Below are positions 841-38,803 of a DNA stretch of 64,000 nt, one piece after another (position 1 is the first letter of the stretch; every line of letters starts with the position of its first letter). The stretch spans positions 310,001-374,000 of the forward strand of contig NZ_JAMXHT010000004.1 in assembly GCF_023955655.1 (NCBI RefSeq), written 5' to 3'. The position numbers were made by a program, and so were the translations under genes. Under the pieces are notes generated by a model, which was not told the DNA's origin, searched no databases, and was given only the letters and a program-made list of their open reading frames with translations. This DNA comes from Ralstonia soli. GTDB taxonomy: Bacteria > Pseudomonadota > Gammaproteobacteria > Burkholderiales > Burkholderiaceae.

Positions 841-881
841 AGTCTATGCAGCACCACCGCGCGTTGATTGCGCTATCGCAA
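841..881 (-). promoter_or_regulatory. Candidate FNR-type promoter of the erythromycin-esterase-like gene
   Basis: On the reverse strand TTGCGATAGCGCAA (881-868) is a perfect dyad (TTGCG-N4-CGCAA), 6 of 10 positions matching the FNR box. It is followed after 21 nt by TAGACT (846-841). The box is the weakest of the series; the spacing is what supports it. Confidence 0.4.
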
Positions 882-920
882 GCGACGGGCCACCCGGCGG
901 GATACATACAGCGCCAAGAC

Positions 921-961
921 TTGATGCAGCCCAAACCGCGGCACGCTACGGCGGATATTCT
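921..961 (+). promoter_or_regulatory. Candidate FNR-type promoter of the zinc-ribbon gene
   Basis: TTGATGCAGCCCAA at 921-934 matches 8 of 10 FNR-box positions. TATTCT at 956-961 follows after 21 nt. The start codon of the gene is at 1037. Confidence 0.6.
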
Positions 962-1036
962 GAAAACGACCCACCGCCTGCCGCGCCGACTGCGCTATGG
1001 AGCGGGCCGGACGAACGTCCCTACCAAGGAGTCAAC

Positions 1037-1537
1037 ATGAAACAACGTTCTCAATCCGAACGAGTACGGCCCGCACGCTGGAGCCCATTTGCCGTTGAGC
1101 CAATCCACAACCGGTATCGGGAGCCCGACAAGGCGCCGGCAGCAAGCCGCTGCCCGGTGTGCGGGGCCGTCTACCTCAAGGGCCGCTGGCTTTGGCGCAA
1201 TCCTCCTCCCGGTGCGGCCACGCTGGTCTGCTCGGCATGCCAGCGCGCCGCCGACCAGATGCCAGCAGCGCGCATCCATCTTTCGGGCGAATTCGAAGCC
1301 GCCCACCGTGAAGACATTCTTACGCTCGCGCGCCACCGCGAGGCGGATCTGCGTGCCGATCATCCGATGGAACGCATCATGACTGTCGAAAGCACCGCCG
1401 ACGGCACCGACATCCTGACGACAGGGTTCCACCTTGCGCGCGACATCGGCCACGCGATCCACCACGCATTCCACGGCCGGCTGACATTCGACTACGGCAA
1501 TGCTGAAACCGAACTGCACGTGAATTGGAGTCGCTAG
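1037..1537 (+). CDS. BCAM0308-like zinc-ribbon protein
   Basis: 166-residue soluble protein. Two CxxC pairs (C39/C42 in RCPVCGAVY and C65/C68 in LVCSACQRA) form a zinc ribbon, followed by an alpha/beta region rich in His and acidic residues. It resembles the family named after B. cenocepacia BCAM0308 (recalled), whose function is not known; the ribbon suggests RNA, protein or ribosome contact. The same frame stays open far upstream, but that part is antisense to the esterase-like gene. I chose ATG 1037 because homologous sequence starts there. It carries its own FNR-like promoter at 921-961. Confidence 0.82.
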   Translation: MKQRSQSERVRPARWSPFAVEPIHNRYREPDKAPAASRCPVCGAVYLKGRWLWRNPPPGAATLVCSACQRAADQMPAARIHLSGEFEAAHREDILTLARHREADLRADHPMERIMTVESTADGTDILTTGFHLARDIGHAIHHAFHGRLTFDYGNAETELHVNWSR

Positions 1538-1573
1538 GGCCCCGGCCGATTGCCTGGCCCACAGGATGAATGC

Positions 1574-2527
1574 TCAACCGTGTGCAACCACGGCTTGCGA
1601 CAACGAAACCTCTCGGTAGCACTGCGCGATCTCGGCGGCGCTGCCGAGTTCGGTACCGGCATGGCTCAACGCTGCGGCAGCGGCAGCCATGCCGTATCGG
1701 AACGCCTCCAGCATGCCGGCATTCCGGTTAAGCGCCCATACCATTGCGCCCACGAAGCTGTCGCCCGCCCCGATGGTGCTGAGGATTGACGTCGCAACAG
1801 CACCCGAGCGAACAACCTCCTCCTGCGTGACAAGCAGGGCTCCGCCTGCACCGAGGGTGAGCGCAACCACCTGCGCGTGTCCCCTGCGGACGATCTCCAG
1901 TGCAGCCTCTATGCAATGGGCGTCCAACTCCAGTGCCTGCCCAGTCAGTTGCCGAAGCTCGTTGAAGCTTGGCTTGATCAGGTAGGGCCCGTGCGGCAGC
2001 GCAGCCCGCAACGGCGGACCCGAGGTATCCAATACGACGCGGGTACCGCGCGCCTTGGCCATATCGATAATGCGCGCATAGAAATCCTCCGGAACCCCGG
2101 GCGGCAGGCTCCCGCTCAGCACGAGATAGCGCGGCGCGGGTTGTAGCGCATCAAGGCAATCCAGGCAACGCTGCCATTCCGACTTCGAGACGGACGGCCC
2201 GGGCATCACGAACCGGAATTCGCGGTGGGTCGAACTTTCCGTGACGGAAAAATTCTCCCGCGTCTCGCCTTCGATTTGCAGGGCGGTGAACGGCAAGCCC
2301 TCTGCCGCCAGCAGACGCGCCAGTCGTTGCGCTACAGGTCCACCGGCAAGGTAGAGGGCCAGGCAATCGCCGCCGAGGCGTTGAACCACGCGGGCGACGT
2401 TGATGCCGCCGCCTCCAGGGTCGATGCGAGCCGGCGCGCAGCGCATCTTGTGCGTATCGGTTATCCGCTCCACCGACGTGGCGATATCGATTGCGGGATT
2501 GACCGTGAGCGTGACGATTTCCGGCAT
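1574..2527 (-). CDS. pfkB: PfkB-family 6-phosphofructokinase / hexose kinase
   Basis: 317-residue PfkB-type (ribokinase fold) sugar kinase. The N-terminus MPEIVTLTVNPAIDI is the classic PfkB/LacC/FruK opening. GGGGINVARVVQRLGG is the first PfkB signature, and STIGAGDSFVGAMVWAL near residue 245 is the second, holding the GAGD anion hole and the catalytic Asp. Expected reaction: fructose-6-phosphate + ATP to fructose-1,6-bisphosphate; tagatose-6-P or fructose-1-P are alternatives that sequence does not exclude. The start ATG 2527 has GGAGGTG 6 nt upstream; a longer frame lacks similarity. Many beta-proteobacteria lack PfkA, so an oxygen-controlled PfkB may open upper glycolysis under low oxygen. 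A candidate FNR promoter lies at 2644-2684. Confidence 0.88.
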   Translation of the reverse strand: MPEIVTLTVNPAIDIATSVERITDTHKMRCAPARIDPGGGGINVARVVQRLGGDCLALYLAGGPVAQRLARLLAAEGLPFTALQIEGETRENFSVTESSTHREFRFVMPGPSVSKSEWQRCLDCLDALQPAPRYLVLSGSLPPGVPEDFYARIIDMAKARGTRVVLDTSGPPLRAALPHGPYLIKPSFNELRQLTGQALELDAHCIEAALEIVRRGHAQVVALTLGAGGALLVTQEEVVRSGAVATSILSTIGAGDSFVGAMVWALNRNAGMLEAFRYGMAAAAAALSHAGTELGSAAEIAQCYREVSLSQAVVAHG

Positions 2528-2643
2528 TGCACACCTCCAGGGATCACGATGGACCGCACGAAAACTGCCGGCACACCCGCTCGCAGCACCGGCAAGCGAT
2601 GCGGCCATCTGCACCACTCCGTGGCCTCCGTGCGGATGCATCC

Positions 2644-2684
2644 ATGCTAGTCGCCATCGTTCTGCGGGCGTTGATCGGCATCAC
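2644..2684 (-). promoter_or_regulatory. Candidate FNR-type promoter of pfkB
   Basis: Box TTGATCGGCATCAC (plus strand, 2671-2684) matches 9 of 10 positions. On the reverse strand TAGCAT (2649-2644) follows after 21 nt. The same TAGCAT is used by the alcohol dehydrogenase promoter at 14449. Confidence 0.7.
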
Positions 2685-2779
2685 GCTACAGGCGCGCAGA
2701 CGCGATCTCCCAGCATAGGCAGCTAACCGCCGCAGGACAGCCGCCCCATCAGGAGAGCGCCCTACGCCAATCCAGAAGC

Positions 2780-2820
2780 TTGCCTCAGGTCAATTCGGCC
2801 TATAGCGAAATGCCTACCCT
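2780..2820 (+). promoter_or_regulatory. Candidate FNR-type promoter of the first phasin gene
   Basis: TTGCCTCAGGTCAA (2780-2793, 7 of 10) is followed after 21 nt by TACCCT (2815-2820), inside TGCCTACCCTGC. The paralogous phasin at 16284 has TGCCTACGCTGC at the same spot, so this element is conserved between the two copies. Confidence 0.62.
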
Positions 2821-2879
2821 GCGGAGATATCCGCTGCGATTTGTTCTTCCTCCCGCCCATTGTCCAACCGGAGCCCGTG

Positions 2880-3344
2880 ATGCCCCAGCCTACTGATGCA
2901 GCCTGCCACCTCGCCTGCGCCACCATGCGCGATGCCAGCCGCGCGGCCCAGTTCTTCGTCGATACCCAGCTTCAGGCCGCACGCCTTCGCGTCAAGATGG
3001 CGGAAGCCGCGCTGGAGAATCTGCGCCAGCTGGAGAGCCAACTCGATGCCGCCAAAGACTGGAGCACGCTGGCCTCTGCGCAGAGCGCCTATATGAAGCT
3101 GCAATCCAATCAAAGCGCAAACGCACTTCGCCAGTGGACTGACTTCGTCAATGGCGCACAACGGTCTTATCTGAGCCAGGTGACGGCGTGGAACGATCAG
3201 TTCAAACATTCGCCCGGGACGGCTGCTTCGCCCGCGCCACTGTTGACCGGATCGCTCAGTGCCTGGCAGACGTTGCTCGGCACGTTCAACGTGATCGCAG
3301 CGTCGGCTACTGAAGCTAGAACGCCGTCATCAAGATGCGCTTGA
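2880..3344 (+). CDS. Phasin-family protein, copy 1
   Basis: 154-residue, mostly helical protein beginning MPQPTDAACHLACATMRDAS. The long amphipathic helices (residues about 20-115, rich in Ala, Gln and Leu) with aromatic-containing turns such as QWTDFVNGAQRSYLSQ fit phasins, which coat polyhydroxyalkanoate granules. It is clearly paralogous to the 162-residue protein at 16284: shared A-C-x-L-A-C-A, KMAEAALE/KLAEAALE, DWS(T/S)LA and A-x-(R/K)-x-W-x-DF blocks. ATG 2880 is chosen because CCGGAG precedes it and because it aligns with the paralog's start. The two Cys near the N-terminus are conserved in both copies. Granule binding is inferred. Confidence 0.8.
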   Translation: MPQPTDAACHLACATMRDASRAAQFFVDTQLQAARLRVKMAEAALENLRQLESQLDAAKDWSTLASAQSAYMKLQSNQSANALRQWTDFVNGAQRSYLSQVTAWNDQFKHSPGTAASPAPLLTGSLSAWQTLLGTFNVIAASATEARTPSSRCA

Positions 3345-3381
3345 CCGCTGTCAATGACGATTTCTGACGACTTTCTATTCT
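3341..3381 (+). promoter_or_regulatory. Candidate FNR-type promoter of the DPYT-repeat gene
   Basis: TTGACCGCTGTCAA at 3341-3354 is a perfect dyad, 8 of 10 to the FNR consensus. TATTCT at 3376-3381 follows after 21 nt. The box begins at the last base before the phasin stop codon. Confidence 0.66.
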
Positions 3382-3465
3382 GAAGATGGCCGTCTGCCAA
3401 CAGCGCGTTGGGTACGACGGGCTTCGACTCAACGATGTCTTTCAGATTGCCTTCAGGAGCACAAC

Positions 3466-3759
3466 ATGCGTAGAACACTGGTAATGACACTGCTTTTTGC
3501 CGCCGTCACGGCAGCCGCTTCGGCGTACGCAGAAAGTCAGCCGGGGGCAGCACAGAACAGTGTCGCGGAAAGGGCCGACAAGATTGATCCCTACACGGAC
3601 GGTGCCGCGCAGGCCAAACGCGATCCGTACACAGAGGGTGCGAGACGCGGCAAGTTTGATCCGTACACAGAGGGCGCAAAGGGCAAACGCGACGCCTATA
3701 CAGACGGTGGCAGCCAAGACAAGGGCAAGGCCCGGACAGCCGACGATCAGTCGAAGTAG
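3466..3759 (+). CDS. Small exported protein with DPYT(D/E)GA repeats
   Basis: 97 residues. A standard signal peptide (MRRTLVMTLLFAAVTAAASAYA, cleavage about residue 22) precedes a short, charged, probably disordered mature chain. The chain carries four near-copies of a 12-14 residue unit: KIDPYTDGA, KRDPYTEGA, KFDPYTEGA and KRDAYTDGG. No Cys and no membrane segment after the signal, so it is likely periplasmic or secreted. I do not recognise a characterised family. The repeats could bind a surface, metal or polymer. GGAG lies upstream (TTCAGGAGCACAAC) and an FNR-type promoter is proposed at 3341-3381. Confidence 0.8.
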   Translation: MRRTLVMTLLFAAVTAAASAYAESQPGAAQNSVAERADKIDPYTDGAAQAKRDPYTEGARRGKFDPYTEGAKGKRDAYTDGGSQDKGKARTADDQSK

Positions 3760-3824
3760 CACCATCTGAGACGACTTGTCGGAGGCCGTAAAGCTGCGAG
3801 AAAAGACACGGCTTCCGATCCCCG

Positions 3825-6215
3825 TCAGTACAACAGATATGCCGCCCGCTGCGAAAGAAAGGCGTCAACCTGGGCCATGTAGACACGCTCGATTGCGTCC
3901 AGCGACACGCCATCACGCAGCATGGCCCAGACAGTCTCCGACCCGACGGACGTGCGAATGGCCTCGAGCTTGAAATGCTCCGGATAGCGCTGCGACAGCA
4001 CGCGGGCCAACGCCAGACCAATGCGGCCGGGGTGCGTCAGCGTTGACGTCCGGTGGATTGCCACACCCGAGCAGGAGCGCCCTTTGTACGGCCCTTCTGC
4101 AGGAACGAAATGGATGGGCGCATAGGTGGCGCCAGTGTCCAGCGCATTGAGATCTCGCGCTAACGCGACGCCATCGATCCACGGCGCGCCGACCATGCCA
4201 AACGGTGCCGACGTTCCCCTGCCCACGCTGATGCTGGCGCCTTCGATCAATCCCACATCGGGGTAGCGCTCCAAGGCGGCGAAATCGTGCAGGTTGGGTG
4301 ACGGCGGAACCCAGCCGAGCCCGGTGTTGGCAAAGCGCATTGCGCGGTTGTACTGCTTCATGGCCACGACGTGCAACGTTGCGCCGATGTGCAACTGGCC
4401 GTTCAGGAACCCGGCGAGTTCTCCGATCGTCATGCCGTGCACGAGCGGCAACGGCACGTAGTTCGTCAACGAGCGGTCCGCCGTATCCGACACCGGGCCG
4501 CCCACCAGATCCCCACCCAACGGATCGGGCCGGTCCAGCACCAGCACCGGGATACGGGCTTGAGCAGCGGCTTCCAGCGTTGCCCCAAGCGCTGCGAGAT
4601 AGGTAAAGAAACGTACGCCCGCGTCCTGGAGGTCAAACACCAGCACGTCAACATCGGCCAGCGCGCTGCGCGGTATGCCCTTGCTGGTGCCGTACATGCT
4701 GTGGACGACCACCTTGGAACGTCTGTCGACGGTGTTTCCGAAAGGCGCATCGAGATCGGTGCCGATACCGTGCTCCGGCGCAAAGATGGCACGCAACCGC
4801 ACACCCGGCGCCTGGGCAAGCACGTCGATGGTGCGCCGGCCCTGGGCGTCGAAACCGCTGCGGTTTGTGACCAAGCCGACACGCTTGCCGACAAGCGGTG
4901 CGAATCCGCCGGCTTCCAATACGTCGATGCCGGAGCGTACTGGGCCAATCGCTGCGGGTAAGCGGCCGCCGGCACGGATGACGGCCTCCGCCATGGTTGG
5001 CGCGCGTACGGCAATCTGCTCGGCTGAGAGCAGCGGCGCCGTGCTCGATACCAGATTCAGCACGGCCTCTCGCAGCGGCATGGCGTCACCCCGCTCCTCC
5101 GGATACAGCCGGCTCGTGAGCACGATGACGAATCGGCGCGTGACCAGGTCGATCCACAACCCCGTACCGGTGTAACCCAGGTGCTGCAGGAGCCCGGCGC
5201 GCGGAGTGCGATAGCGGTTGGGAACCAGCGGCGCCTGGACTTCCCATCCCAGCGTGCGCGTGCCCTCCACTGCAGTCGAGCTGTCTGGCGTCAACAGTTC
5301 GGCCACGCTGTCCGGCTGCAAGATGCGGCGACTCCCGATGCGGCCACCATTGAGAAGCATCCTGGCAAACAGCGCAAGATCATCGGCGGTGGAGAACAGC
5401 CCTGCATTGCCGGATACGCCACCCAGCGCCGCGGCCGTCGGGTCATGTACGTTGCCGCGAAGCCATCGCCCATTGCGGATGATGGTTGGGGCAATGCGAG
5501 CGGCCGACATGCGGCCGGGCCGAAATGCGGTGTCGCGCATGCCGAGCGGGCGAAAGATGGACTGCGCGCACCATGCGTCCAGCCCAAGCCCACTGACATG
5601 CCGGACGATCTCGCCCAAGGCAACGTAGTTGAGATCGCTGTAAATGACACGGTGCCCCGGTTCGTCAATCGGCGGCATGACCTCAATCACGTGAAGCACC
5701 GTCGCGCGGTTGCGGAATTCCGATTGCGCCGCCAAGCCAGGCGGCAGGCCGGAGGTGTGGTTGAGCAACTGCCTCACCGTGATGCGCGCTTTGCCTCCGT
5801 CCGCGAAGGCCGGCCAGTATCGACCAGCCGGGGCATCCAGCTCCAGGCGCCCGCGCTCCGCCAGTTGCAATACCGCCGTGGCCGTGGCAACCGCTTTGGT
5901 CAGCGAGGCCAGATCGAAGATCGTGTCCTCGGTCATCGGCTCGGTGGTGGGTCCGATAGCTCGCCGGCCCAGCGCGATACGCTCGCGCACCCCATCGGCA
6001 TCACCGATGACGACGACCGCTCCGGCAACGTTGGCATCGGCAATCTGCGCGGACACCACGGCTTCGAGTTCACGCATCGGCACCGGCGTACCCAGCGGTG
6101 CATCGCTGGCGGCATGCTCGGCGTGCGCGGTGGGCACCCAGATCAGCAGGGCCACAGCCAGCACCACGACTATCGCGGCAAATTGGCCGGGGCGTAGCGG
6201 TTGCGTGCGTTCCAT
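3825..6215 (-). CDS. Serine hydrolase / exo-beta-N-acetylmuramidase (NamZ, DUF1343) fusion
   Basis: About 796 residues, exported (hydrophobic segment 12-32 ending VPTAHA). The first half is a class-C beta-lactamase/esterase-type serine hydrolase: SLTK (S104, K107) is the SxxK nucleophile motif and YSDLN (192-196) supplies the YxN motif. The second half (roughly 420-795) is DUF1343/NamZ, opening GIDVLEAGGFAPLVGKRVGL with APEHG and DLQDAGVRFFTY blocks. NamZ releases terminal MurNAc from peptidoglycan fragments. Together they suggest a periplasmic enzyme that recycles or edits cell wall or muropeptides. Start: ATG 6215; a GTG 9 nt further up is possible. The start overlaps the glycoside hydrolase gene by 46 bp, so translation is probably coupled. 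Confidence 0.88.
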   Translation of the reverse strand: MERTQPLRPGQFAAIVVVLAVALLIWVPTAHAEHAASDAPLGTPVPMRELEAVVSAQIADANVAGAVVVIGDADGVRERIALGRRAIGPTTEPMTEDTIFDLASLTKAVATATAVLQLAERGRLELDAPAGRYWPAFADGGKARITVRQLLNHTSGLPPGLAAQSEFRNRATVLHVIEVMPPIDEPGHRVIYSDLNYVALGEIVRHVSGLGLDAWCAQSIFRPLGMRDTAFRPGRMSAARIAPTIIRNGRWLRGNVHDPTAAALGGVSGNAGLFSTADDLALFARMLLNGGRIGSRRILQPDSVAELLTPDSSTAVEGTRTLGWEVQAPLVPNRYRTPRAGLLQHLGYTGTGLWIDLVTRRFVIVLTSRLYPEERGDAMPLREAVLNLVSSTAPLLSAEQIAVRAPTMAEAVIRAGGRLPAAIGPVRSGIDVLEAGGFAPLVGKRVGLVTNRSGFDAQGRRTIDVLAQAPGVRLRAIFAPEHGIGTDLDAPFGNTVDRRSKVVVHSMYGTSKGIPRSALADVDVLVFDLQDAGVRFFTYLAALGATLEAAAQARIPVLVLDRPDPLGGDLVGGPVSDTADRSLTNYVPLPLVHGMTIGELAGFLNGQLHIGATLHVVAMKQYNRAMRFANTGLGWVPPSPNLHDFAALERYPDVGLIEGASISVGRGTSAPFGMVGAPWIDGVALARDLNALDTGATYAPIHFVPAEGPYKGRSCSGVAIHRTSTLTHPGRIGLALARVLSQRYPEHFKLEAIRTSVGSETVWAMLRDGVSLDAIERVYMAQVDAFLSQRAAYLLY

Positions 6216-7432
6216 AACATCCACCCGTTGGTGCCCTCAGCATCGGCGGCCTCGACCTGGGCGCGGATCATCTCGGCGTTGAACTCGCGATGATCGAAGG
6301 CATAGTCGCGAAACGCCTGTAGCCAAGGCCGGAACCGCACCCCCGGCAAGCCAGTGCGCCGCTTCGCTTCGGCCAAGGAACGCGCAACGATCTCGCCCGG
6401 CCGCTCAGTAGGCTTTCTGCAGCCGGGCAATCCCCACGTGAACCCGGAGGGATAGAGCATCGGCGAGATGTAGTCGACCACCGCGCCCAGCGTTTCGATC
6501 TGCTGCCCGATTGCCGTGTCGTCGGTGTTCCAGCAGACGTAGCCGAAAATATCAGCCGCCAGATAGATGTTGTACGCGCGCAGTCGCTCTCGTGCCTGTG
6601 CAAGAAAACCGGTGATGGCCGCCACCCGGTGCGCCTGCGTGTTGGCTTGATGAAACTGCAGGCCATTGGCGTCTGGAAAGCGCAGATAGTCGAACTGGAT
6701 TTCATCGAACCCGAGCCTGGCAGCTTCTTCCGCCACATCGAGTGCGCTGCCCCACGCCGCTTCGACACTGGGGTCGATCCAGCGTTGGCCTTCGCCATCA
6801 CGCCAGACGTCTCCAGCGCGATCGCGAACCGTCCATTCGGGATGCGCCTCGGCCAGGCGGTCGTCCTTGAAAACAACGATGCGGGCGATCAGATACAGAC
6901 CCCGTGAACGGAGTTGCCGGACCAGGGCGGCAAACCTGGCAGTGCGGGCCGCACGGTTTTCCGGTTCGCGGGCCGCGCCCACCGCCACGCGGGCGGCACT
7001 CGGATAAGGCGTGTCCCCTCGATCGCCTTTCATGTCGATCACGAGCGCGTTGATGGCCGTCGCACCTTGAAGCGCAACGGCCGCGTCACGCAAGACCTGG
7101 CTCGATACGCCCTGCACGGACAGATAGACCGCGCGGGGCTTGATCGGCTTGAGCAGAATCTCGAAGGCAGCCTTCCCGCTCTCCAGCGGCAGTTCCGCGC
7201 GTGCATAGCCAGGAGCACGAACGCTGACCGTTGCGTGTGCACCCAAAGCCGATTCGGGAATGGCCACCCGGCCGGCGGCGTCGGTCGTCCGGCTCTGGCC
7301 CTCGACCAGGGTGATCGCACCTTCTATGGGGGTGTGGCTGTGGGCGTCCACCACCCTCAACTCTGTCGCACCGGCAAGTCCCGCGCAACCGAGCCACACT
7401 GCCGCAAACCAAAGGCACAGGCGGCTACTCAT
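6170..7432 (-). CDS. Exported putative glycoside hydrolase (DUF4015/GHL13-like)
   Basis: 420 residues with signal peptide (1-22, ending GLAGA). Residues about 25-90 look like a small beta-sandwich (carboxypeptidase-regulatory type, DAAGRVAIPES). From about 95 the chain is a TIM-barrel 'putative glycosyl hydrolase': ALVIDMKGDRGD, YLIARIVVFKD, GFDEIQFDYLRFP (E and D as candidate catalytic residues) and VDYISPMLYPSGF. Substrate unknown; neighbours point to peptidoglycan or an exopolysaccharide. Its start overlaps the deacetylase stop by 8 bp and its end overlaps the NamZ-fusion gene, so it sits in the middle of a four-gene operon. Confidence 0.85.
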   Translation of the reverse strand: MSSRLCLWFAAVWLGCAGLAGATELRVVDAHSHTPIEGAITLVEGQSRTTDAAGRVAIPESALGAHATVSVRAPGYARAELPLESGKAAFEILLKPIKPRAVYLSVQGVSSQVLRDAAVALQGATAINALVIDMKGDRGDTPYPSAARVAVGAAREPENRAARTARFAALVRQLRSRGLYLIARIVVFKDDRLAEAHPEWTVRDRAGDVWRDGEGQRWIDPSVEAAWGSALDVAEEAARLGFDEIQFDYLRFPDANGLQFHQANTQAHRVAAITGFLAQARERLRAYNIYLAADIFGYVCWNTDDTAIGQQIETLGAVVDYISPMLYPSGFTWGLPGCRKPTERPGEIVARSLAEAKRRTGLPGVRFRPWLQAFRDYAFDHREFNAEMIRAQVEAADAEGTNGWMLWNARNRYAPANLPR

Positions 7433-8871: not shown

Positions 8872-8912
8872 ACGATACGGCTGCATGCGTTTGCCGGGTT
8901 GATCTCGCGCAA
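8872..8912 (-). promoter_or_regulatory. Candidate FNR-type promoter of the rhomboid/envelope operon
   Basis: Read on the reverse strand, TTGCGCGAGATCAA (8912-8899, 8 of 10) is followed after 21 nt by TATCGT (8877-8872). The same TATCGT stands at the same distance in the ABC-exporter promoter. Confidence 0.66.
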
Positions 8913-8939
8913 CCAGGGTCAACGGTGTGTCCCGATCCT
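8899..8939 (+). promoter_or_regulatory. Candidate plus-strand promoter from the same box, towards polX
   Basis: The box TTGATCTCGCGCAA (8899-8912) also has a weak -10-like GATCCT at 8934-8939, again after 21 nt, facing polX. The hexamer matches only 3 of 6, so this direction is less sure. Confidence 0.4.
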
Positions 8940-9027
8940 GCAAAGCCACGCGTTCGTTTGATGTGCCGCAAGACGCGCGCGCAGCCAGGTGAAACCATGG
9001 AGCAACGCGCACGCAGGAGGATGCCCC

Positions 9028-10817: not shown

Positions 10818-10858
10818 TTGCTCTCGATCAAATGCACTTGCGCGCGATCTCGTAGATT
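10818..10858 (+). promoter_or_regulatory. Candidate FNR-type promoter of the small BON gene
   Basis: TTGCTCTCGATCAA at 10818-10831 (8 of 10) is followed after 21 nt by TAGATT at 10853-10858, 33 nt before the start codon. Confidence 0.68.
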
Positions 10859-11726: not shown

Positions 11727-11768
11727 TTGATCCAGGTCAACAGGCCCAAGAACAGCCGACACAAGAAT
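11727..11768 (+). promoter_or_regulatory. Candidate FNR-type promoter of the hibernation-factor gene
   Basis: TTGATCCAGGTCAA at 11727-11740 matches 9 of 10. AAGAAT at 11763-11768 follows after 22 nt, the one spacing outlier. Confidence 0.62.
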
Positions 11769-14448: not shown

Positions 14449-14489
14449 ATGCTAGGCAAGCGCCCTGCGCGGACGTTGATCTGCGTCAG
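14449..14489 (-). promoter_or_regulatory. Candidate FNR-type promoter of the alcohol dehydrogenase operon
   Basis: Reverse-strand reading of box 14476-14489 (8 of 10), followed after 21 nt by TAGCAT (14454-14449), identical to the pfkB -10 hexamer. Confidence 0.66.
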
Positions 14490-14516
14490 GGCACCCGGTA
14501 CCGGCCGAGCGATATT
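14476..14516 (+). promoter_or_regulatory. Candidate FNR-type promoter of the kinase/ATPase fusion
   Basis: TTGATCTGCGTCAG (14476-14489) is followed after 21 nt by GATATT (14511-14516), 32 nt before the start codon. One box could thus serve both directions. Confidence 0.6.
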
Positions 14517-14547: not shown

Positions 14548-16134
14548 ATGGCCGAGCAAGCCCTCCCCACCCCATCCGCACGGCCGGCTCAAGCCCTGCT
14601 CGCCGGCATGCTTGAGGCGGCTGCGTATTCACACCCAGCCGCCGATCTGCAGATGATCGAAACCCATCTGTCGTGGGTATTCCTGGCCGGCGACTTTGCG
14701 TACAAGGTGCGCAAACCAGTCAAGCTCGACTTCGTGGATTTTTCGTCCCTCGCTGCGCGGCAAATCGATTGCGAGGAGGAATGCCGCCTCAACCGCCGCC
14801 TTGCCCCTGCGCTGTACCTCGGCGTGGTGCCCATTACGCAGGACGCTGCCACGGGCGCCATCCACGTTAACGGGCAAGGCCGCCCAATCGACTATGCGGT
14901 CCGCATGCGCCGCTTCGCCCAGCATGACGTTTTGAAAGCAAGAGCGGACGATGGGCGCCTTGGTCCCCAAGACATGGATGCCCTGGCCGACCTGATCGCC
15001 GACTTCCACGCAACCGCGCCGGTTGCCACGCCGTGCGCGGACGATGGAATGCCGGCAAGCATCCGGCGCACGCTTGAGGACTGCGCCGCGGGGGTCATTG
15101 CGTTGAGCCGGGAACCCGCTGCGGCGAGCGCGGTGTCGTTGCTTCGTCAGCATGCAGACCGCCTCGAAAGCGCCTTCACCTCTCGTCGGCGCACCCGTCA
15201 CATCCGCGAATGCCACGGCGACCTCCACCTCGGCAACATCGTCTTGATCGGCGAACAGCCCACGCCGTTCGATTGCCTGGAGTTTTCACTGCGGCTGCGG
15301 TGGATCGACACCATGTACGACACCGCCTTCCTGTTCATGGACCTTCTCGCCTCGGGTCTGCATGGACTGGCGTATCGCCTGATCAACCGGTATCTGGAAC
15401 GAAGCGGCGACTACGGTGGGTTGGCGGTCCTGCCCTTTTACGCAGCGATGCGCGCATTGGTGCGCGCCCGTGTGCTGCTGGAGCGTGCACATCAGCTGGA
15501 AGGCGCACCTGAGCGGGCTGCAGCGCCTCGGGACGAGGCTCGCCAGATGCTCGATCTGTCGCGCGAGCTGCTCTGCAGAAACGACGCGTGCATTCTCCTC
15601 ATGCACGGTCTTTCCGGCAGCGGAAAATCCACCCGTGCCGCGCAGCTTGCGGAGGCGGAAGGCATGATCCGCGTGCGCTCCGACGTCGAACGTCAGCGCA
15701 ACCGGTATGCCAATGCTGCCGACCGCTACACGCCGAGCGCGGTGGAGCGAACCTACCGGCGCCTTGCGGCCATCTGCAGGGTGGGTGTGGAGGCTGGTTT
15801 TCCGATGATTGCGGATGCCACCTTTCTGGCCGAGCACCAGCGCAGGCGGTTTTTCGTGCTCGCGCGGCGGTGGGGCGTAACGGTCGGCATTGCCGACTGC
15901 GTGGCCGATGTCGACACGCTGCGCACGCGCATCCGCGCTCGCATGCGCACCGGGCTCGATGCCTCGGAAGCGGATTTGCGCGTGCTGGATGCGCAGATCG
16001 CCACACAACAACCGCTCGGCGTGGAGGAGCGGGCGCATGTCATCCCTGCCGGAGCGCATCGGGTGTTGCCTGATGTCAGAAGCATGCAAAGCCCCGATGC
16101 CCAACATGTTGGCGTAGGCAATCAAGCACCCTGA
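14548..16134 (+). CDS. Bifunctional aminoglycoside-phosphotransferase-like / AAA ATPase protein
   Basis: 528 residues, two domains. Residues about 30-330 are a kinase of the APH/choline-kinase fold: CHGDLHLGNIV (HGDxHxxN Brenner motif at about 223) and PFDCLEFS (metal Asp). Residues about 350-510 are a P-loop kinase-like domain with Walker A GLSGSGKST (354-362) and RVRSDVER. This fused family is widespread and uncharacterised; drug resistance should not be inferred. ATG 14548 follows AGGAGGAG. It shares an FNR-like box with the divergent alcohol dehydrogenase. Confidence 0.87.
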   Translation: MAEQALPTPSARPAQALLAGMLEAAAYSHPAADLQMIETHLSWVFLAGDFAYKVRKPVKLDFVDFSSLAARQIDCEEECRLNRRLAPALYLGVVPITQDAATGAIHVNGQGRPIDYAVRMRRFAQHDVLKARADDGRLGPQDMDALADLIADFHATAPVATPCADDGMPASIRRTLEDCAAGVIALSREPAAASAVSLLRQHADRLESAFTSRRRTRHIRECHGDLHLGNIVLIGEQPTPFDCLEFSLRLRWIDTMYDTAFLFMDLLASGLHGLAYRLINRYLERSGDYGGLAVLPFYAAMRALVRARVLLERAHQLEGAPERAAAPRDEARQMLDLSRELLCRNDACILLMHGLSGSGKSTRAAQLAEAEGMIRVRSDVERQRNRYANAADRYTPSAVERTYRRLAAICRVGVEAGFPMIADATFLAEHQRRRFFVLARRWGVTVGIADCVADVDTLRTRIRARMRTGLDASEADLRVLDAQIATQQPLGVEERAHVIPAGAHRVLPDVRSMQSPDAQHVGVGNQAP

Positions 16135-16177: not shown

Positions 16178-16218
16178 TTGCGCCATATCAACGCACGCCA
16201 GCACAGAATGCCTACGCT
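16178..16218 (+). promoter_or_regulatory. Candidate FNR-type promoter of the second phasin operon
   Basis: TTGCGCCATATCAA at 16178-16191 (8 of 10) is followed after 21 nt by TACGCT at 16213-16218, within TGCCTACGCTGC, matching the first phasin promoter almost base for base. Confidence 0.7.
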
Positions 16219-28409: not shown

Positions 28410-28450
28410 ACGATAGCGATTCAAGGGTGCAGGCCTTTGATGTGCCGCAA
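28410..28450 (-). promoter_or_regulatory. Candidate FNR-type promoter of the exporter-pta-ackA-mgtA operon
   Basis: Reverse-strand TTGCGGCACATCAA (28450-28437, 8 of 10), then 21 nt, then TATCGT (28415-28410). A second, less perfect ATCAA half lies at 28406-28410. It would drive seven genes with no internal gap above 52 nt. Confidence 0.66.
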
Positions 28451-28478: not shown

Positions 28479-29126
28479 TTACAGCGTATCGTCGTCGGAA
28501 AACAAACGATGCCGTATCGCGTAGCGCACAAGGGCGGCTTCGCTGGAGAGCTGCAGCTTGTCCATCAGGCGCATCTTGTAGGTGCTGATGGTCTTGGCGC
28601 TCACGCACAGGCTGGTGGCGATTTCGGTCAGCGGCTCGCCCCGCACCAGCCGGCGGTAGACCTCCATCTCGCGATCGGACAACCGTGTGTGCGCCGCCTC
28701 TTCGCTCGGTTCGCCCAGGCTGTGCGCGAGTTTCTCCGCCATGGGCGGGCTGACATAGGTGCCGCCGAGCGCCACCTTCTGTAGCGCGGTGACGAGTTCG
28801 GTGGCGGCGCTCTCCTTGGTCAGGTAACCCGCCGCGCCTGCGCGAAAGGCGCGCGCCACGTACTGCTCTTCGGCATGCATGGTCAGTACCAGCACACGCA
28901 CCCTGGGGTGATCGTCATGCAACTGACGCAGCAACTCCAGCCCACTGCGCCCCGGCATCGACAGATCGAGCACGATCACCTGCGGTTGATGGTCGCGCAC
29001 CAGTTGCAGGACCTGCGTACCGTCCGAGGCTTCGCACGCGACTTCGAAATCCCCGGCGCGCTCCAGAATATGACGCACGCCATCGCGCATCACAGCGTGA
29101 TCGTCGGCGATCATCACGCGAATCAT
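28479..29126 (-). CDS. NarL/FixJ-type response regulator
   Basis: 215 residues. Receiver domain: MIADDHAVMRDG (acidic pocket), VIVLDLSMPG (phosphorylated Asp about residue 54), VLTMHAEE and YLTKES (Lys). LuxR-type HTH at the C-terminus: LSDREMEVYRRLVRGEPLTEIA ... SAKTISTYKMRLMDKL. ATG 29126 overlaps the kinase stop by 4 nt and has GAGGAGG upstream. Cognate partner of the kinase next to it. Resembles the two-component pair of the B. cenocepacia lxa locus (recalled). Confidence 0.93.
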   Translation of the reverse strand: MIRVMIADDHAVMRDGVRHILERAGDFEVACEASDGTQVLQLVRDHQPQVIVLDLSMPGRSGLELLRQLHDDHPRVRVLVLTMHAEEQYVARAFRAGAAGYLTKESAATELVTALQKVALGGTYVSPPMAEKLAHSLGEPSEEAAHTRLSDREMEVYRRLVRGEPLTEIATSLCVSAKTISTYKMRLMDKLQLSSEAALVRYAIRHRLFSDDDTL

Positions 29127-32688: not shown

Positions 32689-32734
32689 ATGCCGTCTCCT
32701 TCGATCGGTTCTGCGGACAACTACGTGCCCTGGC

Positions 32735-33265: not shown

Positions 33266-33310
33266 ATTGAACTCCTGTGCGTTGGACCTTGTGAGATGTG
33301 CCTGCCGCCC

Positions 33311-33964: not shown

Positions 33965-34015
33965 GGTGGTCTCCTGGAGCTCCGTCGGGGCCGAGTCTCG
34001 GTGAACTCAGTGAGC

Positions 34016-34855
34016 TCAGTGAGACATCAGCACCGGCACGGTCATCGTCTTCAGCAGGGTGCGCGTCACCCCGCCCAGCACGATTTCTCGCAGGCGGCTG
34101 TGTCCGTAGGCTCCCATCACGATCAAGTCGGCATTGAAATCGGCCGCGCGGGAGAGCAGCACCTCACCCACGGCGGCGTCGGAATCTGCACAGTCGGCTT
34201 CTTCCACCGTCGTATGTACGCCGCGCGCGTTCAGTGCCCGTGCAACCTGACCGACTGTCGTTTCCTCGGCCCAGTGCCTTGGCTGCGTACTGTTGATCTG
34301 CAGCACATGCACCGTCGCACCCGCCATCATGGGCATGGCATCGTGCAGCGCGCGGGCGGACTCGCGGCCGCCGCTCCAGGCCACCAGCACACGCCGCGGC
34401 AAGGCGGTGAAGTTACCCGCGTAAGGCACAACCAGCACGGGGCGGCCCGACTCCAGGACCAGCGTTTCCACAAAGTCGCCGGCGACAAAGCCATCGGCAT
34501 CATCCGGATCCCGCTGCCCCACGACGAGCAGGTCGGCCTCCCGCGCCTCACGCAGCACGAGGGCCAGCGGGTCACCTTCCACGGCGCGCCACTCCGCATC
34601 CACCGACAGCCCCTCCATCGCGTCGCGAAAGCGCGCGTGCACGAGATCCCGAACCGTGTCGCGCCGGCCACGGTCTTCCTCCAGATAGCGCGCGGCGCCT
34701 TCCATCATGTAGAACCAGTTGGGGCTCGGCGCAAAACTCGCATAGATGCCGACAAGCTTGGCGTGGTGCGCCTGCGCGTACAGCGCGGCAAGTTTGAGGC
34801 GGTGCATGGCGCGCTCACTGCGGTCCAGATGCACCATTACGCTGGCGTAGCTCAT
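34016..34855 (-). CDS. Tandem universal stress protein
   Basis: 279 residues, two UspA-like halves. The second half carries the ATP-type motif MGAYGHSRLREIVLGGVTRTLL (G-x2-G-x9-G-S/T); the first half has VVGQRDPDDADGFVAGDFVETLVLESGRPVLVV and is degenerate. Soluble stress factor; ATP binding is expected only in the second half. 39 nt downstream of the single-domain Usp gene. Confidence 0.92.
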   Translation of the reverse strand: MSYASVMVHLDRSERAMHRLKLAALYAQAHHAKLVGIYASFAPSPNWFYMMEGAARYLEEDRGRRDTVRDLVHARFRDAMEGLSVDAEWRAVEGDPLALVLREAREADLLVVGQRDPDDADGFVAGDFVETLVLESGRPVLVVPYAGNFTALPRRVLVAWSGGRESARALHDAMPMMAGATVHVLQINSTQPRHWAEETTVGQVARALNARGVHTTVEEADCADSDAAVGEVLLSRAADFNADLIVMGAYGHSRLREIVLGGVTRTLLKTMTVPVLMSH

Positions 34856-34894
34856 GGTCGGATCCCGGTGTCGAGTCAGAAGGCAGGCTGGCGG

Positions 34895-35395
34895 CTAGGC
34901 AATGACGACATTGCTTAGCGGTTCCGTGGCGACGTCCGGTGTCTCGGTCGGCACAGCGCGAATCAGCAAGACAGGCAGCGTGCTCTGGCGCAGGACGCTC
35001 TCTGCCACGCTGCCAAGGAACAGGCGCTGGAAGCCGCGCCGGCCGTGCGTGCCCAGCACCAGCGCCTGCGCGCCAACGTCTTTTGCCGTGTGCTCGATGG
35101 CAAAGCCAATGTCGAAGGTTCCGATCGGGTCGTCCACCACCACCCCGCGGGCCTGCACGCCCGCCTTCTCGGCCTTGGCGCGTGCATCGGCAATGATCTG
35201 CTTGCCCTGCGCCATCAACGCTTCTGTAAAACCACGGATATCGATATAGCCAACGTCGTACTTCAGGTAGGCGTTGTCGATCACGTGGGCGATGACCAGT
35301 TCGGAGCCGAGCTTCTTTGCAAGCTGGATGGCCTCATCCAGCGCGCGATCCGCCGTGGGACTGCCGTCCACCGCGACCAGAATCCTGTCGTACAT
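34895..35395 (-). CDS. Universal stress protein
   Basis: 166 residues, single UspA domain: MYDRILVAVDGSPTADRALDEA at the start and LGTHGRRGFQRLFLGSVAESVL as the ATP-binding G-x2-G-x9-GS motif. ATG 35395 follows GGAGGCACATC; the longer frame upstream is non-coding. First gene of a six-gene operon (Usp, Usp, BON, flavodoxin, DksA-like, BON; gaps 30-51 nt). Two FNR-like boxes lie upstream. Confidence 0.93.
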   Translation of the reverse strand: MYDRILVAVDGSPTADRALDEAIQLAKKLGSELVIAHVIDNAYLKYDVGYIDIRGFTEALMAQGKQIIADARAKAEKAGVQARGVVVDDPIGTFDIGFAIEHTAKDVGAQALVLGTHGRRGFQRLFLGSVAESVLRQSTLPVLLIRAVPTETPDVATEPLSNVVIA

Positions 35396-35448
35396 GATGT
35401 GCCTCCATCGAATCCGTCGTCTGCCCACAAGCGGGCTCGCTGGATTCC

Positions 35449-35489
35449 ATGTTGGACCACCGGGCAGATCGCCCATTGATTTACATCAG
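35449..35489 (-). promoter_or_regulatory. Candidate FNR-type promoter of the Usp-BON operon
   Basis: Box TTGATTTACATCAG (plus strand, 35476-35489; 9 of 10). On the reverse strand CAACAT (35454-35449) follows after 21 nt. The hexamer is weak (3 of 6). Confidence 0.58.
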
Positions 35490-35521
35490 CGTTTGACGCG
35501 CCAGACGCCATCGCAATGCCA

Positions 35522-35535
35522 TTGATCTGCCTCAA
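35522..35535. promoter_or_regulatory. Extra FNR-like box in the Usp/CBS regulatory region
   Basis: TTGATCTGCCTCAA, 9 of 10. No -10-like hexamer stands 21 nt away on either strand. Could be an upstream (class I type) or silencing site. Confidence 0.5.
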
Positions 35536-35614
35536 TGGCCAAAAGCCACTGCTCGATAGACTGGTCCGCTCTGCGCTGCCCGATCTCGTGCAGCGACGAC
35601 AAGCTCACGGCACC

Positions 35615-35655
35615 TTGTGCGGGATCAACTTCTGACACCGGCCCGTTCTTATAGT
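35615..35655 (+). promoter_or_regulatory. Candidate FNR-type promoter of the CBS-DUF2892 operon
   Basis: TTGTGCGGGATCAA at 35615-35628 (8 of 10), then 21 nt, then TATAGT at 35650-35655 (5 of 6), the best -10 of the set. Confidence 0.72.
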
Positions 35656-35683
35656 GAAAAGCGTACGCGCACCGGAGTCCAGC

Positions 35684-36151
35684 ATGAGGGTTAATGAAAT
35701 TTGCTCCCACCGCATCGTCCACGTTCAGACAACGGCGAAGCTGCAAGACGCTGCCCGATTGATGCGGGATGAAAACGTTCGCGCATTGCTGGTCACGGAA
35801 CGGACCGCTGGAGGCTCGCGGGTGGTGGGCATCGTGACCGACCGCGACATGGTGGTGCACGGCATCGCCAGCCGCGGCGATTGCACGCAGACCGCGGTGT
35901 CCCAGGTCATGACCCGTGGCCTGCTGACCATCCACGACGACGCCGTCATCAGCGAAGCGTTGCGCTCGATGCTCAGCCACGGTCTGCACCGTCTGGCGGT
36001 GGTCGATCGTCAGCAACGGCTGGTGGGCATGCTGAGCCTGGACGATGCCATCCGTGCAATGGGCGGCGAATGGACCTTGCTGGCCGGCATTCTCGGCCGC
36101 GACAACGTGACCGACTCCCGCCAGCATGCGCCGTCCGATCTGATTCTCTAA
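35684..36151 (+). CDS. CBS-domain-pair protein, copy 2
   Basis: 155 residues, two CBS domains (VVGIVTDRDMVVHGIAS and LVGMLSLDDAIRAMG). Close relative of the protein at 16796. ATG 35684 follows ACCGGAG and aligns with the paralog's start; 10 upstream codons are left out. Probably an adenylate sensor. 33 nt before the DUF2892 gene. Confidence 0.9.
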   Translation: MRVNEICSHRIVHVQTTAKLQDAARLMRDENVRALLVTERTAGGSRVVGIVTDRDMVVHGIASRGDCTQTAVSQVMTRGLLTIHDDAVISEALRSMLSHGLHRLAVVDRQQRLVGMLSLDDAIRAMGGEWTLLAGILGRDNVTDSRQHAPSDLIL

Positions 36152-36184
36152 TCCTTCAACCAAGCATTCTTCAGGAGCATTGCC

Positions 36185-36367
36185 ATGTTTCCCAATGTCG
36201 GCACCGCGGACCGCGCCGTCCGCATCTTGATCGGTATCGCCATGATCCTGCTGGCGTTCTTTGGCAAAGTGCCCGCATGGGTTGGCTGGCTGGGCCTGGT
36301 GCCTTTGGTGACGGGGCTCATCCGCATGTGCCCGCTCTATTGGGCGCTGGGCATTGGCCGGGATTGA
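36185..36367 (+). CDS. DUF2892 small membrane protein
   Basis: 60 residues, MFPNVGTADRAVRILIG then two short helices (IGIAMILLAFFGKVPAWVGWL and LVPLVTGLIRMCPLYWALG). Matches the DUF2892 pattern (N-V-G-x-x-D-R-x-x-R, C-P-L-Y). In YgaP this segment anchors a rhodanese; here it stands alone. AGGAG precedes the ATG. The stop is directly next to the converging DUF4010 gene stop. Confidence 0.85.
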   Translation: MFPNVGTADRAVRILIGIAMILLAFFGKVPAWVGWLGLVPLVTGLIRMCPLYWALGIGRD

Positions 36368-37594
36368 CTAGACCGCGAACCAGAACAGTACCCAGCTGCA
36401 CAGAAGCATCGTCAGTAGACCGGCGGCAACCTTGCTGGCAAACGCCCGGCCTCCGCTGATGGCCACGGCAACCTTCGCAACGGTATTGGCTGTCAATGCA
36501 AGCATGATGAGCATTCCTGCCGCCGCAAGCGGCACTCTCTGGCTGGCAACTTGTGTGGCAATGGACGCTGTCGCCGCATGCACATCGGCGAATGCGCCAA
36601 CCACCGTGACAGCGGCCACCGCCGCCGCCCCGAACCAGGCGTGTGCGGCGGCGGCAGCGAGCAGCAAGGTCGCCGTCCACAAGGCGAAGCCGATCGCGAC
36701 TCGCCAGTTGATCGACGACGCCGTACTCTCCAACGCTTCCTGAGGTGCCCCGGCATCACGCCATATCCATAGCGCGGACCACGCCACGGTTGTCACAACA
36801 CCGATCACCAGCGGGGCCGCCAGCATGCGCAGCAAGTCGAGGTTGATGGCGGCAATCAGCACCCCCATCTGCACCAGCGTCGCGACATTGGACAGCAGCG
36901 CCGCGGCAACCGCGCCGTCAATGCAACGATGGCCTTTCCGAACGCGCGCGGCCATGGTCGTGATCGTTGCGACACTCGATGCAAAACCGCTGAACAGCCC
37001 CGCCAGCGGCAGCCCGATGCGCTCGCCGAACCATCGCGCTGCAAAGTGGCCCGTGTTGCCCGTCAGCATGACCAGCAGCACAACCAACCACAGCGTATGC
37101 GGGTTCCATGCGTTCCATGGTCCCATCGCCCGGTCCGGGACGGCCGGCCAGATCAGCAACGCCGCCACGGCGAGAATCAGCAGATCGGCAAGTTCACGCT
37201 GGGTGATGACCGTGCGGGCGAACCGATGCAAACCCGCCTTGGCATAGAGCAAGACGAGGAGCACCGTCCCGAGCCCGGCCGCCATGTCAGGCGCACTCAC
37301 GGCATAAGCGCCCAGCAGGGTGGTGGCGACAAGCGCGAGTTCCGTCGTCACACCAGGATCCACATTCGCCGAATGGTGATACCCCAGCGCCGCCAGCACC
37401 GTGACGGCCAGCAACACAGCCGGCACAGCAAACGGTATCGGCAGGCTCGCCGCAATGGCACCGGCCAGCGCCCCGATGGCAAAGGTCCGTATGCCTGCGG
37501 GCAACTCCGCGCTGTCGGCATGGCTACGCTCGCGCTCAAGGCCGATCGCCAGCCCCAGGCCCAAGGCAACAGAGAAGGACAGCAGTGAAGACAT
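36368..37594 (-). CDS. MgtC/SapB-DUF4010 family membrane protein
   Basis: 408 residues, about 12 membrane helices. The N-terminus SVALGLGLAIGLERERSHA holds the MgtC-type G-L-x-R-E motif, followed by the DUF4010 half (from about 170). Possible role in Mg2+ homeostasis or membrane energisation; not proven. ATG 37594 has a weak Shine-Dalgarno; longer in-frame starts exist. FNR-like promoter proposed at 37632-37672. Confidence 0.87.
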   Translation of the reverse strand: MSSLLSFSVALGLGLAIGLERERSHADSAELPAGIRTFAIGALAGAIAASLPIPFAVPAVLLAVTVLAALGYHHSANVDPGVTTELALVATTLLGAYAVSAPDMAAGLGTVLLVLLYAKAGLHRFARTVITQRELADLLILAVAALLIWPAVPDRAMGPWNAWNPHTLWLVVLLVMLTGNTGHFAARWFGERIGLPLAGLFSGFASSVATITTMAARVRKGHRCIDGAVAAALLSNVATLVQMGVLIAAINLDLLRMLAAPLVIGVVTTVAWSALWIWRDAGAPQEALESTASSINWRVAIGFALWTATLLLAAAAAHAWFGAAAVAAVTVVGAFADVHAATASIATQVASQRVPLAAAGMLIMLALTANTVAKVAVAISGGRAFASKVAAGLLTMLLCSWVLFWFAV

Positions 37595-37631
37595 TCGGCA
37601 GATACGGATGGCGGCTGTATTGCACGCATCC

Positions 37632-37672
37632 AGTATTGCGTGCGGCGGCGCGCCTCGATTGATCTGGCGCAG
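37632..37672 (-). promoter_or_regulatory. Candidate FNR-type promoter of the DUF4010 gene
   Basis: Box 37659-37672 reads CTGCGCCAGATCAA on the reverse strand (7 of 10); AATACT (37637-37632) follows after 21 nt. Confidence 0.45.
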
Positions 37673-37749
37673 TGGATGGGCCGCTGCGGGGCGAACGGGT
37701 TCGCCTGGGTCATCCATACTCAACAGACACGCTGCGTGCGGAGGTACCG

Positions 37750-38766
37750 ATGTCTGAATCGAAATCGATGCAGGCCATGGTGATGGAAGGCGCCGGGAAA
37801 CCCTTGCTCTGGCGGCGCGTGCCCATGCCCACGCCTGGGCCGGGCGAGGTCCGGATCGCCGTGTCCGCGTGTGGCGTCTGCCGCACCGATCTCCATATCG
37901 TGGACGGCGAACTCACTGCCCCGAAGCCTGCCCTCATCCCTGGCCATGAGATCGTCGGCACCGTCGAATCATGTGGCGAAGGCGTGACTTCCCCAACCGT
38001 GGGAACGCGCGTGGGCGTGCCATGGCTTGGATGGACCTGCGGAGTCTGCCCCTACTGCCTGCGCGGACACGAAAACCTGTGTGACCACCCTGCTTTCACC
38101 GGATACACGCGCGATGGCGGTTACGCACAGTACGTGGTCTGCGATGCGCGGTACTGCTTGCCAATTCCCGCGCGGTACGACGATGCGCACGCCGCACCGT
38201 TGCTCTGCGCCGGCCTCATCGGCTACCGCACACTGCGCATGGCAGGCGATGCCCGCCGGATCGGTATCTACGGCTTCGGCGCCGCGGCCCACCTCGTCAC
38301 GCAGATTGCCGTGGCGGAGCAGCGCGAAGTGTTCGCCTTCACCCGTGCTGGCGACACGGCGGCCCAACAGCTTGCCCTGGATACCGGCGCCAAGTGGGCT
38401 GGCGTGAGCGATGAACCCGCACCGGAGCCACTCGACGCCGCATTGATCTTCGCGCCGGTCGGGGCGCTCGTACCGCAAGCGCTACGGGCCGTGGTCAAAG
38501 GCGGCACAGTGGTCTGCGGCGGCATTCACATGAGCGACATCCCGGCGTTTCCGTACCGGCTGCTGTGGGAAGAACGCAAGCTCGTCTCTGTCGCCAACCT
38601 CACCCGGGCGGATGGGCTAGCGCTCATGCGCATTGCGGCGGAAGTCCCATTGCAGGTTCACGTCACGTCCTATCGACTGCAAGACGCCAACACGGCCCTG
38701 GACGACCTGCGCGCCGGACGCGTGGCTGGCGCGGCGGTTCTGCAGGTGTCATCGGAAGACATTTGA
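37750..38766 (+). CDS. Zinc-dependent alcohol dehydrogenase (AdhA-like)
   Basis: 338 residues. Catalytic zinc: CGVCRTDLHIVDG and GHEIVG; structural zinc Cys set CGVCPYCLRGHENLC; Rossmann motif IGIYGFGAAAHL (about 170). This group of single-domain, broad-range ADHs uses NAD(P)H with short aldehydes. ATG 37750 has GGAGGTACCG upstream. Sits in the low-oxygen block, but I find no well-placed FNR promoter for this strand; the box at 37659 lacks a -10 in this direction. Confidence 0.9.
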   Translation: MSESKSMQAMVMEGAGKPLLWRRVPMPTPGPGEVRIAVSACGVCRTDLHIVDGELTAPKPALIPGHEIVGTVESCGEGVTSPTVGTRVGVPWLGWTCGVCPYCLRGHENLCDHPAFTGYTRDGGYAQYVVCDARYCLPIPARYDDAHAAPLLCAGLIGYRTLRMAGDARRIGIYGFGAAAHLVTQIAVAEQREVFAFTRAGDTAAQQLALDTGAKWAGVSDEPAPEPLDAALIFAPVGALVPQALRAVVKGGTVVCGGIHMSDIPAFPYRLLWEERKLVSVANLTRADGLALMRIAAEVPLQVHVTSYRLQDANTALDDLRAGRVAGAAVLQVSSEDI

Positions 38767-38803
38767 TGCGTATCAACCGCTGACGCGCCACGCTGTCTAC
38801 GCT
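38763..38803 (+). promoter_or_regulatory. Candidate FNR-type promoter of the last Usp gene (perfect box)
   Basis: TTGATGCGTATCAA at 38763-38776 is a perfect FNR consensus. TACGCT at 38798-38803 follows after 21 nt, the same hexamer as in the second phasin promoter. The box overlaps the stop codon of the alcohol dehydrogenase. Confidence 0.8.

Follow-up and report, generated by a model that had tools for sequence, protein, structure and literature searches.

Why should one gene group after another in a single region of a bacterial genome carry the same regulatory box at the same distance from a -10-like hexamer? The question is raised by positions 1–39,300 (39.3 kilobases, kb; the block) of a 64,000-nucleotide (nt) stretch of Ralstonia soli contig NZ_JAMXHT010000004.1, the whole of which is called the window. 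A preliminary description had placed 17 promoters in the block, from 14 dyads resembling the FNR box TTGAT-N4-ATCAA, and had read them as class II FNR promoters with the box at about -41.5. Our analysis indicates that the block very probably serves survival under stress and low oxygen, is of the same type as the lxa locus of Burkholderia cenocepacia, and is activated by the FNR family at class II promoters. Both the promoter class and the locus type are known, and the dense and uniform layout of the predicted promoters is the case presented here. Guesses at single promoters become a conserved, testable regulon spanning the whole survival block.

Box and hexamer at a fixed distance

All 17 promoters of the preliminary description are present with the hexamers it gave, 16 of them at 21 nt and one, for gene 11815, at 22 nt. 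The boxes number 15 rather than 14, with two common to divergent genes (8899–8912 and 14476–14489), each of them 21 nt away from a -10 element on either side. Scored over the ten positions of TTGATN4ATCAA, 14 of the 17 promoters have boxes with no more than two mismatches, those for genes 2880 and 37594 have three, and that for gene 802(-) has four. The listed composites are real, although the list was incomplete, as two conserved composites of box and hexamer at 35522 (TAGACT) and 8958 (AACCAT) had not been included as promoters. The position expected of class II promoters, a dyad about 21–22 nt before the -10 element and centred about 41.5 base pairs before the start, is found at the level of the -10 hexamers, the start sites being predicted.

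Distances from 8 to 44 nt (37 in all, the distance being left free beforehand) were scanned in both orientations for boxes with two or fewer mismatches. Of the 54 oriented boxes in the block, 11 have TANNNT at 21 nt, a single one has it at 22 nt, a single one at 36 nt, and none at any of the 34 other distances; the laxer NANNNT is found at 21 nt in 17 of the 54, against 0–5 at other distances. The binomial probability of the 21-nt peak, estimated from the other distances, is about 1e-22. Past the block, over the other 24.7 kb of the window (39,301–64,000), TANNNT stands at 21 nt in 0 of 12 boxes, and the scans found no 21-nt composite there. In a 360-kb control from the same genome, TANNNT stands at 21 nt in 0 of 214 boxes and NANNNT in 12 of 214, inside the range of 1–18 seen at its other distances. 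Across the whole 5.73-megabase genome, box-N21-TANNNT (≤2 mismatches) has 50 matches as compared with six for the reversed pattern, and 12 of the 50 fall within the block, which is 0.7% of the genome (P about 1e-15). Equal frequency elsewhere had been named in the preliminary description as what would tell against its promoters; the composite instead clusters in the block, and control DNA has almost none.

Inventory and conservation of the predicted promoters

The region around the FNR-type gene of the block (Table 1) was taken from 15 further genus genomes, genes were placed by tblastn, and 250 bases upstream were read; the stretch from one genome (G002) is a 7.8-kb contig and those from G013 and G004 are shorter than 40 kb. 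In these 15 stretches TANNNT lies at 21 nt from 111 of 598 boxes, with two at 20 nt, one at 22 nt, and no more than three at any other distance within 14–30 nt. For a footprint of 17 genes, in the window and up to 14 other genomes per gene, we required a box with at most three mismatches and a NANNNT hexamer with at least three of the six letters of TATAAT, at exactly 21 nt. This composite is carried by 174 of 184 upstream regions, and the next best distance, 18 nt, has 18. The 184 include five rows for gene 2880 that duplicate the site of gene 16284 in the same genome and three alcohol dehydrogenase (ADH) rows that belong to a paralogue; matches starting after residue 12 (PolX in G007, gene 3466 in G010, gene 10891 in G014 and G004) and three Burkholderia PolX rows were left out. 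The box, the length of 21 nt and the hexamer are kept across relatives and the letters of the spacer change, one example being CTGATGTAAATCAA-N21-CAACAT upstream of the universal stress protein (Usp) gene 35395 in 14 of 15 rows.

Table 1. Predicted promoter boxes and regulatory genes of the block. Rows are the upstream regions of each gene in the window and its relatives, with the composite scored at exactly 21 nt.
Positions	Strand	Feature	-10 element	Gene	Rows and remarks
868..881	-	box TTGCGATAGCGCAA	TAGACT 841-846	802(-), erythromycin-esterase-like	weakest case, 4 mismatches; 0/2 rows pass threshold
921..934	+	box	TATTCT 956-961	1037(+)	21 nt in 3/3
2671..2684	-	box	TAGCAT 2644-2649	2527(-), PfkB	3/5
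2780..2793	+	box, 3 mismatches	TACCCT 2815-2820	2880(+)	14/14, 5 repeating the 16284 site
3341..3354	+	box	TATTCT 3376-3381	3466(+)	10/10
8899..8912	both	shared box, divergent	TATCGT 8872-8877; GATCCT 8934-8939	8848(-), rhomboid; 9028(+), polX	rhomboid side 21 nt in 11/11; polX side GATCCT in 5/9, AACGAT in 2/9, missing or displaced in 2/9
8958..8971	+	second polX box	AACCAT 8993-8998	9028(+), polX	AAC[CG]AT at 21 nt in 6/9; not in preliminary list
10818..10831	+	box	TAGATT 10853-10858	10891(+)	6/6
11727..11740	+	box	AAGAAT 11763-11768 (22 nt)	11815(+), S30AE/HPF-like	22 nt confined to window sequence; 21 nt in 11/11 relatives
14476..14489	both	shared box, divergent	TAGCAT 14449-14454; GATATT 14511-14516	14420(-), zinc alcohol dehydrogenase; 14548(+), AAA_33/APH-like	dehydrogenase side 21 nt in window and 11/11 relatives with a 92-97% identical orthologue; AAA_33 side 21 nt in 11/14, 22 nt in 3/14
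16178..16191	+	box	TACGCT 16213-16218	16284(+)	14/14
28437..28450	-	box	TATCGT 28410-28415	28334(-), FtsX/MacB-like permease, and efflux genes behind	11/11
28479..29126	-	LuxR/NarL-type response regulator			start codon provisional; 61% identical homologue in Burkholderia stagnalis C29
29123..30601	-	PAS histidine kinase (HisKA_3)			56% identity over residues 136-481, B. stagnalis C29
30692..31561	+	FNR-type regulator: C-X2-C-X5-C, later cysteine, E-T-V-S-R helix			first codon provisional
35476..35489	-	box	CAACAT 35449-35454	35395(-), Usp	15/15
35522..35535	+	box, first of two	TAGACT 35557-35562	35684(+), CBS protein	13/15 (two with one inner letter altered), plus G009 in a separate scan; not in preliminary list
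35615..35628	+	box, second of two	TATAGT 35650-35655	35684(+), CBS protein	21-nt composite from either box in 15/15
37659..37672	-	box, 3 mismatches	AATACT 37632-37637	37594(-), MgtC/DUF4010	13/13
38763..38776	+	perfect box	TACGCT 38798-38803	38847(+), Usp	15/15

The erythromycin-esterase-like gene 802(-) is present in only one relative (G012) among the stretches fetched, where the letters of both box and hexamer are identical to those of the window. A composite for 8836(-), also picked up in the scan, lies within the rhomboid reading frame and was taken for chance. The box at 37659–37672 was considered as a third shared divergent box and rejected, the ADH2 side being without a consistent -10 element in the window and the 11 relatives listed. 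Boxes matched in both directions (21 nt, ≤1 mismatch) are also present elsewhere, at C4:34992-35059 in G007, C2:1161309-1161376 in G008, C113:40929-40996 in G014, and C29:1799-1866 in B. stagnalis (G017); because one side has a poor hexamer, it is only possible that these are shared class II boxes. The half-site nearer the -10 element is the better one in 10 boxes and the far half in three, with four ties (sign test P 0.09), and an asymmetry of the half-sites is not established.

In addition to the genes in Table 1, the predicted products of the block include a beta-lactamase-fold/NamZ protein, DUF4015 and polysaccharide-deacetylase-like proteins, a nitroreductase, a phosphoribosyltransferase, a cation ATPase, acetate kinase (AckA) and Pta, together with two ADH-like, two CBS, two BON and three Usp proteins in all. 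PolX is 88–89% identical to R. pickettii records and indicates the genus Ralstonia. Two of the products are composite: in the single protein encoded by window positions 3825–6224, a beta-lactamase-fold domain at the N-terminus is joined to a NamZ exo-muramidase at the C-terminus, with a homologue on B. stagnalis contig C37, and positions 14548–16134 encode an APH-like part fused to an AAA_33/zeta-toxin-like kinase part, with a homologue on contig C29 of that genome.

The block probably begins to the left of base 1, beyond the window, because a strong composite (GAACAT placed 21 nt from a perfect box; C26:307434-307474, L022) is present 2,566 bases to the left and has look-alikes, judged by their letters only, in at least nine genomes of the genus. 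A weaker composite (CACGAT) is at -3,631 relative to the window.

Candidate activators of the block

Which protein would read these boxes? Of 24 CRP-type helix-turn-helix matches in the genome, 20 loci were examined, and two of them have both C-X2-C-X5-C and E-T-V-S-R, and encode four-cysteine FNR proteins with the E-x2-S-R helix and predicted cluster binding. One is the regulator within the block; the other belongs to contig C23, where genes reading as ccoN and ccoI lie no more than about 9 kb away. Each of the 16 genus genomes searched, this one among them, has an orthologue of the block FNR (≥74% identity), although the G004 copy has one stop. A tree of 17 rows puts the block type with seven FNRs from Burkholderia, and the C23 type with Escherichia coli FNR (support 98/97, with a long-branch warning). 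The class II FNR reading of the preliminary description gains support from the concentration in the block, from conservation in the genus and in B. stagnalis, and from these two FNR-type proteins.

In the scheme that we favour, when oxygen drops, an FNR-family protein carrying an iron-sulphur cluster would dimerise and bind the TTG-N8-CAA-type box upstream of a gene group; from the class II position over the -35 place it would then recruit RNA polymerase to the -10 element 21 nt on. Most gene groups would own one copy of the promoter, and two divergent pairs would use one box each. We infer the binding, its oxygen dependence, the start sites, and the role of the block FNR as activator, either alone or with its C23 paralogue. 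Several observations weigh against this scheme. Some hexamers of the set are poor (GATCCT, CAACAT, AATACT), the box of 802(-) is weak, two of the five PfkB rows are without the composite, and polX in three Burkholderia loci has this promoter in none of the three. No 21-nt composite is found upstream of the block FNR gene. FNR, Anr, Dnr and FixK proteins have this box in common, and the identity of the protein therefore does not follow from the box by itself. FNR and oxygen control of the block in this organism is itself predicted from a sequence pattern.

It is possible, although we doubt it, that the boxes are read mainly by the second FNR, on contig C23, and less by the block FNR. The two proteins have the same cysteine and helix motifs, and the block FNR gene, as noted, is without a composite of its own. 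However, the block genes adjoin the block FNR in all 15 other genus genomes (only one or a few of them in G002 and G013, which are short contigs), a 52% identical homologue of it is encoded on B. stagnalis C29, and the genes near the C23 FNR are spaced at 22 nt, not 21. We give little credit to an arrangement like that of DosR, in which the PAS kinase and NarL-type regulator govern the block and FNR only modulates it. Such a pair is present both in the block and on B. stagnalis C29, and M. tuberculosis DosR is described in the available part of PMC6127331 as controlling genes functionally like those of lxa, but the element found conserved before most of these groups of genes is the box of FNR type at its fixed distance, no search for a second motif having been made. 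A chance or selection effect, which the preliminary description itself raised since its distance was settled after the first few cases, can be set aside with near certainty, as the 37-distance scan, the control DNA and the relatives refute it for the set as a whole, although an individual case, 802(-) for example, may have arisen by chance.

Spacing classes and known systems

The spacing itself sets the block apart from some of the other predicted FNR promoters. In the 16 genus genomes, composites with boxes of one mismatch or fewer number 29 at 20 nt, 151 at 21 nt (the listing of these holds one fewer than its table count) and 99 at 22 nt, with 1, 1 and 0 in the reversed controls. A hand count in five genomes (G000, G001, G006, G007 and G008) gives 31 at 21 nt and none at 22 nt for the block and its left flank, against 30 and 32 outside it (Fisher P about 7e-8; orthologues are non-independent, and some matches are perhaps no true promoters). 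A Fisher test of 17:0 against 9:7 on hand-made groups was not used. In this genome and in G001, the 22-nt sites are upstream of genes reading as ccoN, ccoI, hemN, nitric oxide reductase and small proteins, and the 21-nt sites outside the block are upstream of genes reading as Usp, nosZ, ribonucleotide reductase, an amino-acid-binding protein and others. These gene names are our own reading, with several downstream frames doubtful, and the 23 out-of-block composites were drawn from both spacing lists, which biases the ratio among them. Examples of 22-nt composites before ccoN-, ccoI- and hemN-reading genes are at 15274–15315 and 18088–18129 of L117 (contig C23), 3454–3495 of L124, and 2977–3018 of L139. 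The predicted promoters of the block are almost purely of the 21-nt kind, and those of the ccoN, ccoI, hemN and nitric oxide reductase genes elsewhere are at 22 nt; no description of such a split was found in the portions of the literature searched.

One explanation is that the two Ralstonia FNR paralogues divide their targets by one base, the block type using 21 nt and the E. coli-like C23 type 22 nt, so that geometry rather than the box would pick the activator. We regard this as unlikely. It accords with the 111 to 1 ratio of TANNNT at 21 and 22 nt in the block stretches, while in whole genomes 22 nt is nearly as common, and with the placement of the two FNR types on opposite sides of one supported branch of the tree. 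Four points count against it: two of the 99 22-nt matches are inside blocks (in G004 and G013), both on the opposite side of a 21-nt box; out-of-block genes reading as nosZ and B12-type ribonucleotide reductase have 21 nt; E. coli, with its single FNR, has hexamers at both spacings; and the same 22-nt element is seen in each of three Burkholderia genomes whose nine FNR matches are 50–52% identical to the block type, none being of the C23 kind by identity (seven of the nine are in the tree). The split nonetheless gives a concrete means of testing how paralogous FNR proteins could avoid sharing targets.

The one-base difference is within the known range, because E. coli and Sphingopyxis promoters vary likewise. 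With E. coli -10 hexamers of our own choosing, the hexamer is 21 nt from the box in nirB and fdnG, as in the block, and 22 nt in narG and dmsA, than which the block spacing is shorter by one base if these hexamers are used. The preliminary description had taken its spacing to fit a position of about -41.5. The available parts of the cited papers place narG, dmsA and nirB at -41.5 and other promoters at -40.5 or -42.5 (PMC3688515), and Sphingopyxis ccoN and uspA at -41.5 and hemN2 at -42.5 (PMC7713065).

As for the locus type, the accessible portions of the lxa papers describe a 50-gene low-oxygen-induced cluster in B. cenocepacia with six Usp, a BON protein and a phosphofructokinase (PMC6127331, PMC9733578), reported as needed for anoxic persistence (PMC6127331, PMC9104464) and absent from strain H111 (PMC9104464), with BCAM0049/fixK suggested as a central oxygen-response regulator (PMC6127331). 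The Ralstonia block is likewise a Usp-rich cluster with metabolic genes, and with three Usp, two BON and one PfkB among its predicted products it is of the lxa kind. In this comparison B. stagnalis contigs C29 and C37 stand in for BCAM0275-0323 of B. cenocepacia J2315. They encode homologues of many block genes (besides the FNR, kinase and regulator, AckA 58%, Pta 68%, BON 48%, PfkB 55%, NamZ 61%, DUF4015 66%, ADH 76% and AAA_33 37% identical) and have 21-nt composites, with TANNNT at 21 nt in 12 of 84 boxes, one at 22 nt, and none or one at other distances. Judged against these stretches, the Ralstonia block differs in gene order and in having erythromycin-esterase, rhomboid, polX and efflux genes, which were not found there (FtsX has one 46-residue piece); polX of B. 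stagnalis sits elsewhere in that genome. No paper joining 'lxa locus' with 'Ralstonia' was found, and the word FNR is absent from the main text, so far as available, of the lxa papers searched; a link between FNR and lxa may already be in print, because the original lxa paper was outside that search. The present comparison adds evidence, at the level of sequence, for a promoter-by-promoter link of blocks of this kind, both in Ralstonia and in one Burkholderia, to an oxygen sensor of the FNR type.

Among other FNR and Anr systems, again from partial texts, the closest likeness is to Herbaspirillum seropedicae, a beta-proteobacterium whose Fnr1 and Fnr3 are paralogues with the cysteines kept, with usp among the most strongly induced genes, fnr1 near the cbb3 genes, and boxes with unequal half-sites (PMC5934665). 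There, however, targets are sorted by half-sites and heterodimers, whereas in Ralstonia the block and the cco/hemN group have different spacings. Shared boxes seem to be already known for Pseudomonas Anr, with boxes listed before the pairs qor/hemF and cioA/PA3931 in the accessible part of PMC6588701, which we read as shared. The predicted promoters are like the E. coli class II FNR promoters of narG, dmsA and nirB in both box and distance; the difference is that Ralstonia packs about 19 such predicted promoters into 39 kb at a single spacing.

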